A stretch of 64,000 nt of DNA from an uncultured Bacteroidales bacterium. GTDB lineage: Bacteria; Bacteroidota; Bacteroidia; Bacteroidales; Paludibacteraceae. Every line of letters begins with the position of its first letter. The first letter of the stretch is position 1. Of this stretch, positions 14,634-55,764 are shown in pieces. The notes under the pieces were generated by a model. It saw only the letters and a program-made list of their open reading frames with translations. It did not search any database and had not been told where the DNA came from. The stretch spans positions 62,001-126,000 of the forward strand of contig CACXYM010000005.1 in NCBI GenBank assembly GCA_902771935.1, in the 5' to 3' direction. Both the position numbers and the translations under genes were made by a program.

Positions 14634-14754
14634 ATGGCTGAACAGTAGCATAATAACAGCTTAATCACCCTATAATCACCTTTTAATCACCCTTTAATCA
14701 CCCTTTGTTAGCGGGGAGAGATTCGCAAAAAATGGGATAATTCTGCAGGTTTAT
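14634..14754. other. Intergenic region after priA, before the exporter promoter
   Basis: Non-coding. It holds the 11-bp-phased TAATNACC array (14651-14702) and then about 50 nt of unremarkable sequence before the -33 box. No hairpin terminator for priA was found, so the array may lie in its 3' untranslated region. Confidence 0.6.
14651..14702. repeat. Phased 11-bp repeat array, site A (5 units)
   Basis: TAATCACC begins at 14662, 14673, 14684 and 14695, and a degenerate TAATAACA at 14651, all exactly 11 bp apart. The same unit and spacing recur at 42645-42685 (other strand) and 55696-55747. Starts 18 nt after the priA stop codon. Confidence 0.85.
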
Positions 14755-14786
14755 TTTGCGTATATGAAAAAAAAGTAGTACTTTTG
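14755..14786 (+). promoter_or_regulatory. Promoter for the MMPL/RND exporter operon
   Basis: -33 TTTG 14755-14758, -7 TACTTTTG 14779-14786, spacer 20 bp. It predicts a leader of about 310 nt that contains all of the 53-bp tandem repeats. Confidence 0.78.
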
Positions 14787-14811: not shown

Positions 14812-15078
14812 AACAGAAGGATAGATAAATAGTCCCCGAAGGGACCAAGTAAAAGAAAAAAGTCCAACAGAAAAAGAGATAAGCAATCCCCAAGGGACCA
14901 AGTAAAAGAAAAAAGTCCAACAGAAAAAGAGATAAGCAATCCCCAAGGGACCAAGTAAAAGAAAAAAGTCCAATAGAAAGAGAGATAAGCAATCCCGAAG
15001 GGACCAAGTAAGGGAAAAGGGTCTAACAGAAAGGGAGAAAATACATCCCAAAAGGGACTAAGTAAAAGAAAGTTAAGG
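14812..15078. repeat. 53-bp tandem repeat in the exporter leader
   Basis: Units start at the motif GGGACC at 14841, 14894, 14947 and 15000, with GGGACT at 15054 (periods 53, 53, 53, 54), plus partial copies at both ends. Units 1 and 2 are identical, unit 3 has three changes, unit 4 is more diverged. Every junction keeps a small hairpin TCCC-(3-5 nt)-GGGA whose loop varies (CGAA, CAA, GAA, AAAA). Purine-rich on plus; no plus-strand frame is open through it. Confidence 0.9.
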
Positions 15079-15103: not shown

Positions 15104-18100
15104 TTGAGAAGCGGATATCATTACATATTGTTGGGATTGTCGATTGTGGCAGCGGTTATCTGCGGGATACTGATTCCGCGGGTGAATGTCAATAGCGACA
15201 TGACGAAATACCTGCCGAACGACTCGCGGATGCGTGAGGGTTTGGAGATAATCACGAATGATTTTTCGGCGGCACAGTTGCAGAATGCAGACGTGAAGGC
15301 GATGTTTCCGGATGTACGTTCAGATGAGCGTGAAGTTCTGATGAGTCAGTTGAATGCCCTTCCGGATGTTTACGGCATCACCTACAATGTGTCGGCAGAT
15401 AGTGCTTACACCTTATTTAATATGGTTGTACCGAAGAGTGTTGACCAGAAGGCGTTGGGTAAGTCTATTTGCGAGCGCTACGGAGATGATGTGATTGTAG
15501 AGACGAGTCAGGATGGTGCGACACCTCCGTTCTCGGTTATTGTTATTGCGGCTATATTGATTTTTGCGGTATTGTTCTTTATGGCTCAATCGTGGTTAGA
15601 TCCGTTGCTGATTCTTCTTGCGACAGGAATAGCGGTTGTGCTGAATGTGGGAACGAACTTCTTCATGCCGAGTGTATCGATTACGACGAATTATATTGCT
15701 CCGATTTTGCAGTTGGTATTGAGTTTGGACTATTCGATAGTGCTTTTGAACCGCTATCGTCAGGAGTTGAATTCGGGTGTTGAACGGACGTTGAGTCAAA
15801 CGATTAATACGGCTATTCTGCGAGCAATACCATCAATTATCAGTAGCGCGATGACAACAGTTGTTGGTTTGCTGATGTTGCTGTTGATGCGTCTGAAGAT
15901 AGGAATGGACATGGGTATTGTTTTGGCTAAAGGTGTGCTGTGCAGTTTAGTTTGCACGTTCACAGTTTTGCCTTCCATGTTGTTATTATTCCACAAGGCA
16001 TTGCAAAAAACTACGAAGCGCGTGTTTGTGCTTCCGACAGACAAGATAGGTTGGTTTGTGACACACCATAAAGTGACATTGGTTATCTTTATTGTGCTGC
16101 TGTTTGGTTCATCCTATTATTTTTCTCGTCAGACGGATATAACTTTTTCGACGAATGGTAAGTCGCAGATAAGCGAGGTGTTCCCGCGTTTGAACCCGAT
16201 GCTTGTTGTATATGATACAAAGGACGAGCCAGGCATCATGCAGTTAGCAGACAGCATGAAAAATGAAGAGAGTGTGTTGAGTATAGTTTCTTATCCGACT
16301 TTGCTCAAGTCTCAATATACGGCATCAGAACTGACCGCCCATATCAAACGTTTGACCGTAGATATGGCAGACTATATGCCGTCGCTGGACAACAATATGA
16401 GCATGCTGACTCCGGAATTGATGCAAGTGGTATATTACCTTCATTCGGGCAGTGGCGACACGTTAACTCTTCCTTTCCCGGAAGTGATGCGATTTATCAA
16501 GGATGATTGTTTAAATAATCCGTTGTTTGCTGGTGTCATTGATAACCGGCTGCGCAGTCAGATACAGTTGTTAGACGGATTGATGGCTATTTCGAGCAAT
16601 TCGGATGACGAAGAATTAGAAGAAGAAGCAGAAGTTGCTGCTCCGACGGTTATTCATCACGAGGATGTGGATGCCCATTTGAATCCTGTTGAGTCGCGAA
16701 CGGATGCGAATGCTGAGGCAAAGAATGTGCGTCACGGCAAAGGTAAGATGGCTGTTGACGGCAAGATTTCAGTTATTCAGTTTGCTAATATCCTGGATGC
16801 TATTTACAGCAATGAGTCCTCGTCTTATCTGCGCCATATCACGGATACGACACAGTTGCACAAGGATATGAACGTCCGTCAGATGGCCGATTTCATCGGT
16901 TCATCGAATAGCCAGACGAAACTTATTTATTCGATGAGTGATTACGGCAAGCGAATGACTCCGTTGCAGTATGTGCATTTTTTGACGGACGATTTGTTCC
17001 GTCGTAAGGCACTCCGTTCGATGGTTAGCGACGAACAGAAACGCGAATTGACTATCCGTGAGCGATTTATGGATTATGCTGATGCAGATGCGTATTTGTC
17101 GGCAGAAGACTTGTCGTCGATGTTGATGGAATATGGTTTCCACACGATGACTGAATCACGTGTTTTGGCGATTGCTCGCGGACAAGATTTATTGCCAGAG
17201 CCGGAGGAAGAAGAACTTCTTCCAGAGGATAATCAGGCACTTTATTCGGATGTTGATTCGTGCGCGATAGAGAAAGAAGAATTAGCGGCCGTTTCATCTA
17301 CTCCGAAAGCGAAGAATGAAAATGAGCGTCGCGCCGAATTGATGGTTGAACTGATGGAGTCAAACAAGGAATACACGAGCGCTGAGATGGTGAAGATATT
17401 CAAGTCGTTAGGCGAGCAAGTTTCTCCATCCACGGTTCATTTGCTGTATTGTTACTACGGTAGTCAGCACTATTATAATGATAGTCTTCGGATGAGTCTG
17501 GAAGGTTTGCTTTACTATGCTGCCGATACCTTGATTAAGGATCAACAAGTGACAGCATTCCTGGATGAAAAGACTCGTGCTTTAATAGAAGATATTCCGA
17601 ATCAGTTGAAAGATGGTATTGGTATGTTGAGCCACGACGATTACGCATTGATGGTGCTTGTGACCAATTTACCAGATGAATCTCCCGAGACTTATGCTTT
17701 TGTGGAGGAACTTGATAGTTTGTCGTCTGCGATATTGGATGAACCATACTATTTGGTTGGCGAATCAGTTATGTTTGACGAGATGAAACGAGGATTCAGC
17801 GCTGAAATGACGAGGATTACGTTGTTTACGATATTGGCTATTTTCTTGATAGTTGCACTTACGTTCAAATCTATATTTGTTCCGATTATTCTGGTGATGA
17901 CTGTTATGACGGCCGTGTTTGTAAACGTAACCGTAAGTGGTTGGATATCAGGCGGTATGTTGTATCTTGCTTACTTGATTGTTCAAAGTATTTTGATGGG
18001 TGCGACGATAGACTATGGAATTTTGTTCGCTAACTATTATAAGGAACATCGGCGTGTGGAGGATGAGTATGAAGCGAGCAAGCAAGCGTATCGTGGTTCG

Positions 18101-42617: not shown

Positions 42618-42644
42618 CATCCCGCTCCCTACCCGCCAGAATAA

Positions 42645-42685
42645 GGTGATTAAAGGGTGATTAAAAGGTGATTAAAGGGTGATTA
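42645..42685. repeat. Phased 11-bp repeat array, site B (4 units)
   Basis: GGTGATTA (reverse complement of TAATCACC) starts at 42645, 42656, 42667 and 42678, exactly 11 bp apart, in the 100 nt between the small membrane gene and mutL. The flank GGGTGATTAAGCAGTTA closely matches the equivalent flank of site A (reverse complement GGGTGATTAAGCTGTTA). Confidence 0.85.
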
Positions 42686-42717
42686 AGCAGTTAAACAGCA
42701 TACTATAAGCAAATTAC

Positions 42718-55230: not shown

Positions 55231-55647
55231 TTATGAATTTTGGCGGAACTGCCGTTGGAGCATGGCCCGGATGAACATATCAAGTCGAGTGTAGATGCGT
55301 GGTTTTCGTGTTTCCGGATTGATGGGTGCTTCAGGATCACCGGCATTGAGTTGTGCCTGGAAACGTTTTTTCCAGTAAGCCATCCGCTCTGGATTTTGTT
55401 TGTCCAAATTGAATTGTGCGATAGCCTGGCGGAAAGCCTCAATAGTTTTTAATTCTCCCGATTTCATCGGCTTTTTTTCGTAGTTGCGCGGATGTTTGAG
55501 CAAGTAGGATTCGTTAGCAGCTTCGCCAATGATGTTTCCGTTTTCGTCGCGGAAGATTTTGTGTCTAGAGATAACGGGTCTACGTCCTTTTTGCGAGATA
55601 CGTCCGGTCATGTAATCAATCGGATCGAGGTATTTAGTTTTTGCCAT
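55231..55647 (-). CDS. 138-aa basic protein of unknown function
   Basis: No membrane segment or signal. Begins MAKTKYLDPIDYMTGRISQKGRR and carries HKIFRDENGNIIGEAANESYLLKHPR, a proline- and charge-rich middle, and a C-terminal stretch with RKPRIYTRLDMFIRAMLQRQ. Net basic, so nucleic-acid contact is possible but unproven. It has its own promoter; its leader is made up largely of the 11-bp array. I do not recognise the family. Confidence 0.7.
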   Translation of the reverse strand: MAKTKYLDPIDYMTGRISQKGRRPVISRHKIFRDENGNIIGEAANESYLLKHPRNYEKKPMKSGELKTIEAFRQAIAQFNLDKQNPERMAYWKKRFQAQLNAGDPEAPINPETRKPRIYTRLDMFIRAMLQRQFRQNS

Positions 55648-55764
55648 AGGATTTTGACGCGATATAAGCCCTCACGTCATGGGGGTTTATCTTGTTAATA
55701 ACCTTTTAATCACCTTATAATAACCCTTTAATGACCTTATAATCACCTTTAGTTAAATCGGGTG
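55648..55764 (-). other. Leader of the 138-aa gene
   Basis: Untranslated region between the promoter and the ATG. It contains the site C array and a short stretch (55648-55695) in which I see nothing else. Confidence 0.6.
55696..55747. repeat. Phased 11-bp repeat array, site C (5 units)
   Basis: TAATAACC 55696, TAATCACC 55707, TAATAACC 55718, TAATGACC 55729, TAATCACC 55740, all 11 bp apart. The fifth base varies (A, C, G) while TAAT and ACC are fixed. Lies between the -7 box and the start of the 138-aa gene, so it is transcribed in that leader. Confidence 0.85.

Follow-up and report, generated by a model that had tools for sequence, protein, structure and literature searches.

Dispersed intergenic arrays of in-phase 11-bp units in an uncultured Bacteroidales bacterium and its relatives

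Porphyromonas gingivalis belongs to the same order as the uncultured bacterium considered here, and one of its dispersed repeats, the BrickBuilt MITE, appears by comparison of architecture to be the nearest relative of the arrays described below. In the portion of the source drawn upon here, BrickBuilt consists of 23-bp units arranged in tandem without spacers, in up to 22.8 copies, between a leader and a tail; the elements reach 991 nt, the 19 copies are always intergenic, whole units are gained or lost with some unit positions variable and others invariant, and there are IS5-like 12-bp terminal inverted repeats (PMC4596501). The same excerpts present a second P. gingivalis MITE, 464/PgRS, as a dispersed element with internal tandem 41-bp units, repetitive flanks and inverted repeats (PMC4596501). 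Direct repeats of the heptamer TAACTGA occur in Beggiatoaceae, Cyanobacteria and some Bacteroidetes; according to the sections of that report used here, a single heptamer recurs across phyla, mainly in forward orientation and directly upstream of start codons, with 2–6 copies in the main genome (PMC4679880). Lastly, tandem repeats with 6–11-bp units are over-represented intergenically in some archaea, Methanococcus and Natrialba, in the excerpted account (PMC4060949).

Among the matches listed from the open-licence PMC literature, none described phased 11-bp arrays in Bacteroidales. The original prediction, which knew of no such element in this order, holds only in part, since BrickBuilt comes close to the arrays in architecture. 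Within what the available part of the BrickBuilt source describes, the arrays resemble that element in having leader and tail blocks, an intergenic position and 17 copies as against 19, and differ from it in having 11-bp units, 3–5 copies of them and many different units across the genus. The IS5-like terminal inverted repeats given in those excerpts were not found at the arrays. The best match to the BrickBuilt 12-mer was recorded within 300 bp of 77 arrays (all 17 of this genome, G000, and part of those from seven other genomes), and had 2 mismatches in 3 cases, 3 in 45, 4 in 28 and 5 in one, compared with 1 mismatch in one, 2 in 3, 3 in 28, 4 in 43 and 5 in 2 of 77 random windows; no close match was thus present near these 77 arrays. 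Nor do the array ends carry inverted matches of their own (mean 8.10, controls 8.28). As a dispersed element with internal tandem repeats, 464/PgRS is likewise similar, but its 41-bp units, repetitive flanks and inverted repeats, as excerpted, set it apart. The TAACTGA repeats, in the portion of the report considered, share the presence of many short, mainly intergenic direct-repeat sets per genome; unlike these TAACTGA/STRR repeats, the present arrays have an 11-bp unit and a mixed orientation and context. The leader, register and species-specific families seen here are not described in the consulted part of the archaeal study.

The window, i.e. the whole 64-kb stretch of DNA that was analysed, contains three arrays, which exist and lie where they had been predicted. 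Site A has unit starts at 14651, 14662, 14673, 14684 and 14695 on the plus strand, in 11-bp steps, and begins 18 nt past the last base (14633) of the stop codon of priA, as had been reported. This gene name, like mutL, rpsP, dnaX, mrp and the others used here, is presumptive, having been recognised from sequence. The positions of the five units first counted are correct, but TAATAACAGCT (14651..14661) is better read as a leader block that is in phase with, and precedes, the first unit, like the TAGGAACGGCT-type blocks elsewhere, since L052, L053 and L063 carry TAGGAACGGCT or TAGGAACAGCT at this place and L064 carries TAGGATAAGCT; looser variants of the block exist at other loci. Four 11-bp units follow, TAATCACC with CTA, TTT, CTT and CTT (14662..14705), and then the tail block TGTTAGCGGGG (14706..14716), the tail being conserved across 17 arrays. 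A promoter-like -7 box, TACTTTTG (14779..14786, plus strand), lies 76 nt downstream of site A and is called from its match to the Bacteroidetes -7 promoter consensus alone. Between this box and an RND-type gene at 15104 there is a 53-bp tandem repeat of 4.9 copies (14812–15071), the consensus unit of which can form a weak 4-bp hairpin around CCCCAAGGGA and no other fold.

Site B is likewise an array, though its motif is on the minus strand, opposite to A and C, and its strand required correction. In plus-strand order it consists of the tail block TTCTGGCGGGT (42631..42641), four 11-bp units (42642..42685, previously given as 42645–42685) and the leader block GTTTAACTGCT (42686..42696); between the last of these positions and the GTG start codon of mutL (42718) there are 32 nt. 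A block similar to this leader, TTTTAACTGCT, precedes L253, an array of the TACG family in G102. Site C, on the plus strand between a minus-strand gene (55231–55647) and rpsP, has five 11-bp TAATMACC units (55696..55750, previously 55696–55747), one of which is TAATGACC; the leader position GTTTATCTTGT (55685..55695) and the tail block AGTTAAATCGG (55751..55761) are weak matches. In general the units are followed by an 11-bp, TGTTAGCGGG-like tail block, which is weak at site C, and a 22-bp period has also been reported at sites B and C. The three bases separating the motifs, which had been taken for a free N3 spacer, are only CTT, TTT, TTA or CTA, and their middle base is T in 58/58 internal units, a position left unforced by the search pattern. 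CRISPR was considered and discarded, as the 11-bp units abut, without unique spacers between repeats.

Allowing up to two mismatches, the two-unit pattern matched the window 11 times against 0.49 expected, a number reached by 0/100 shuffles. The exact pattern gave 58 overlapping matches in the whole genome (2.06 Mb, 46 contigs) and its reversed control none. When chained, these matches form 17 arrays of 3–5 units, three of them in the window, with the unit consensus TAATMACC-YTW (TAATMACC followed by YTW) repeated at exactly 11 bp; on their contigs the minus strand carries 10 and the plus strand 7. No picked ORF of at least 90 aa spans any of the 17, L053 sharing 5 nt with the end of a 240-aa ORF of low complexity; approximately 94% of the window lies inside picked ORFs. 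Among the 77 arrays from eight genomes, 75 have no spanning picked ORF of at least 80 aa and the other two are inside ORFs, one of 87 and one of 96 aa; in eight of the 77, between 5 and 27 nt are shared with the end of an ORF. Orientation along the contigs, judged by eye, is mixed. Arrays as common in coding regions as chance would give, or a spacing lost elsewhere, were not what was found: the 17 arrays avoid genes and the 11-bp spacing is kept at other sites. A second unit family, TAATCACTCAC, is represented in this genome by one array, at C6:84807.

The relatives compared are Paludibacteraceae, probably Ca. Colicola. Pattern searches of the genome and its relatives revealed arrays with 11-bp spacing well beyond the window; the period persists while the unit changes between related species, a change missed in the original prediction. 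The two-unit pattern (TAATNACC-N3 pairs) was present in 37/60 same-genus relatives, some of which have just one match; its spacers depend on the species (TAC, CAC, CCC/CCG, CGC and CAA). It was also seen in 4/40 other families, where it amounts to one or two doublets. Its reversed control also matched in several relatives, which we read as units whose CAC or CAA spacers contain the control pattern. The three-unit pattern was found in 40/100 same-genus genomes, this genome not counted. A different family, TACGTATAT-N2, is absent from this genome and occurs in 13/178 genus genomes, in which the overlapping matches number 56 at most, and TAATAACCTAC arrays, sought with a narrower pattern, were seen in 1/32 other genera of the family. 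G107 has many different units; in G159 one or two dominate. The 10-bp unit TTTGAAATRG is present in 15/178 genus genomes, its arrays, several per genome (L162; G001, G186, G196, G199), constituting a sister class one base shorter.

Motif-free period scans (threshold 27/33 matches) covered 80 loci selected through the mrp gene (1.44 Mb) and four contigs from genomes in which arrays had been seen already, five genus data sets in which one 21-kb locus overlaps a contig. Period-11 arrays numbered 23 in the 80 loci, 12 in G107 and 19 in G159 (400 kb each), 11 in G102 (325 kb) and 10 in G101 (400 kb), so that the gut-bacterial sequences sampled carry approximately 1.6–4.8 of them per 100 kb. Over the five data sets there were 75 arrays of period 11, as compared with 7, 4, 10, 5 and 0 of periods 8, 9, 10, 12 and 13; 66 had period 7 and 44 period 22, which is a harmonic. 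At a threshold of 26/33 matches, 11/13 period-11 arrays in G107 and 19/21 in G159 were wholly outside picked ORFs. In 20 other families of the order, a sample in which three stretches are under 1.3 kb, no period-11 array was found in 306,091 bases, for which the density in the 80 loci predicts about 5, and period 7 occurred once in these 306 kb. The heptamer arrays (L123–L202 and the four contigs) are very uneven between genomes, and adjoin several of the G044 11-bp arrays on the downstream side.

A dispersed-repeat structure, with a leader and a tail around the units, had not formed part of the original prediction. Ahead of the core stands a degenerate block in phase with it (TAGGAACGGCT, TTTTAACTGGT, GTTTAACTGCT, with looser forms as well), and after the core comes one resembling TGTTAGCGGGT. 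Loci of one genome show conservation over approximately 10–40 bp upstream and 10–25 bp downstream of the core, and homology between copies extends past the array, with pairwise medians of 55–84 bp by genome. Neighbouring units are 11 bp apart in 273/274 steps, in arrays that had been selected for an 11-bp step. Pooled autocorrelation of the flanks within 80 bp of the 77 cores gave z values of 14.5 at lag 11, 11.1 at lag 22 and 6.7 at lag 33, a signal due in part to degenerate edge units left uncounted by the regular expression; at 80–200 bp it was mostly gone. Flanks of the G044 arrays showed lag 7 in place of lag 11.

A 22-bp leader profile trained on 33 heads of the TAATMACC family (G123, G041, G059) was applied to 20 heads of the TACG family, where its mean score of 5.19 compares with 2.09 in shuffles (z 5.2), with 0.83 in downstream sequence and with 1.56 for the opposite strand. 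The best match was in register in 14/20 TACG heads (chance 1 in 11) and 5/20 singly exceeded the 95% shuffle level, figures which are optimistic because of kinship among these heads (two fall in one duplicated segment) and the periodic nature of heads. Support was weak with the G000 heads (z 2.4, 11/17 in register and 3/17 above the 95% level) and with those of G044 (z 2.2, 4/7 and 1/7). On statistical grounds an in-phase leader is probably shared by two unit families that are unrelated to each other. In G159, at C4 117745 and 354125, leader-like blocks (TTCGGTATTGA, CTTCGGTAATG) have been expanded as 11-bp units before a TAATCACTAAC core.

Gain or loss of whole units was seen between orthologous arrays (L137/L151; L149 or L153 versus L164; L249/L258). 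Core and flank identities were compared in four orthologous pairs, each a single locus. In L407/L206 the core was 93% identical and the flanks 44 and 57%; in L249/L258, where one array is a unit longer, the core was 93% and the flanks, partly coding, 70 and 67%; the two closest pairs, with cores of 96 and 100% and flanks of 98–99%, displayed no contrast. In one convergent intergene near 16.1 kb, L149, L153 and L164 possess TTGACCGTCGG units, yet L150, approximately 88% identical to them overall, possesses the unrelated 11-bp units AAGTCTTACTA. An array present in L194 is absent from L181 (94% identical), the junctions not being clean. Upstream of dnaX, arrays were found in 5/39 distinct regions, including that of this genome, with four different units; considering the overall array density, the permanence of this site is not strong evidence. 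The arrays upstream of mrp (3/41 regions) were dropped as a single site since their neighbours differ, and no synteny was detected between G102 C1 and G101 C16. The G102 arrays L244 and L252 are inside a 751-bp duplicated segment (88.7% identical), and a AGTGGTAACGA-type 11-bp repeat is situated upstream of them.

Our best explanation, which we hold at about even odds, is that the arrays are short dispersed non-coding elements which spread and are homogenised in the genome and whose register is probably maintained by a protein. That they are a dispersed repeat element is argued by the copies in genomes, the shared units, the gain and loss of units and the confinement to intergenic DNA. Such an element, of approximately 60–110 bp, would comprise a leader of one or two in-phase 11-bp blocks, in many cases with GGCT at its end, followed by 3–5 near-identical 11-bp units and an in-phase tail. 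It may spread inside the genome by copying, either through gene conversion or through transposition by an enzyme supplied in trans, and its units would be homogenised within the genome; through such copying and homogenisation species would come to differ in the unit word. The register would be kept by a protein whose protomers line up head to tail along one face of the DNA, one to each helical turn, binding probably starting at the leader. The phased cooperative binding originally proposed gains in that the 11-bp register and the intergenic placement hold far past the window, so that helical phasing looks real; the protein itself is putative, as are the mechanism of copying and any consequence for the cell. 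As judged from the DNA sequence, a protein bound once per turn would be the simplest account of the register, the leader and the conserved cores. Against this explanation, homogenisation alone could keep the cores alike, and period 7 comes close to period 11 in frequency, which has no simple fit to helical phasing.

It is possible, though we think it doubtful, that the arrays are instead a neutral or selfish minisatellite, generated by 11-bp slippage duplications, spread by ectopic conversion, tolerated only between genes and read by no protein. Change by whole units, degenerate edge blocks, patchy families, the lack of a shared gene context and the heptamer arrays of the same genomes would all suit a minisatellite, as would the P. 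gingivalis precedent in its excerpted form (PMC4596501). The rarity of periods 8, 9, 12 and 13, off-register steps of only 1/274 (in preselected arrays), the in-phase leader that unrelated families have in common and the better conservation of core than of flanks in two of four pairs are contrary to it. The register, the in-phase leader of unrelated families and the two conserved cores, in arrays found by search patterns that preselect conserved positions and register, go beyond what slippage alone predicts.

Operators of the OmpR/PhoB type consist of tandem direct repeats approximately 11 bp apart, and the step of the present arrays is similar (273/274 steps). Operator arrays of a single transcription factor, for example a response regulator of this type, are nevertheless an improbable explanation. 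Promoter-like boxes reading away from the array within 200 nt were present at 24/77 arrays on each side, with those reading towards it numbering 10 and 12 and approximately 6 expected from the overall density (the nearest away-facing box being at 53 nt), an excess that favours operators; the identical counts on either side of an array that is itself polar do not, and no fixed promoter geometry was found among the 77 arrays. In one orthologous pair, L249/L207, the array follows a promoter-like box and precedes a start codon, a placement that also speaks against operators. The flanking genes are divergent at 27, convergent at 16 and tandem at 31 arrays (3 without a call), the 16 convergent sites again being unfavourable to operators, and all four start/stop combinations occur, over a wide span of distances. 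The neighbours form no coherent set: 20 clusters of neighbouring genes were found in two or more of the eight genomes, none in more than 3/8, and a few of these are true orthologous positions (G102/G159, G041/G059). In addition, close species differ in their unit.

An element acting at the RNA level, either a terminator or a translational control repeat of the kind proposed for Beggiatoaceae in the available part of that report (PMC4679880), is very unlikely: some arrays are indeed 35 nt or less from a stop or start codon, but they occur in both orientations relative to transcription, folds of both strands of three sites (six folds) were close to shuffles (z -1.35 to 1.34), and an Rfam search of 11 loci, the window not among them, returned three tRNAs and no match at an array. 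The mixed gene context and orientation and the lack of an RNA fold thus argue against a classical operator and an RNA element alike. Intrinsically bent DNA, in which phasing alone would set the curvature without a sequence-specific reader, merits equally little credence: the period is about one helical turn and 10-bp families exist too, yet several units (TTGACCGTCGG, TAATCACCCAC) lack A-tracts, exact letters are kept in the units, and two orthologous sites show conservation of the core letters.

The explanation that we prefer, a dispersed element whose register a protein probably maintains, can be extended, speculatively and with little confidence, to a system shared by the genus: a DNA-binding protein that polymerises would nucleate at the conserved leader and read 11-bp modules on one face of the helix. 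Its recognition word would differ from species to species, as the words do at the L149/L153/L164 versus L150 site, with the period, leader and architecture persisting. If true, this would be a bacterial example of fast co-evolution between DNA-binding specificity and its dispersed arrays. Homogenised tandem arrays that are specific to a species are familiar from eukaryotic satellites. The present arrays would provide a testable system in which to ask why some repeats stay in helical register, by what route short repeats become homogenised over a whole bacterial chromosome, and whether they reflect a specificity of DNA binding that changes rapidly.
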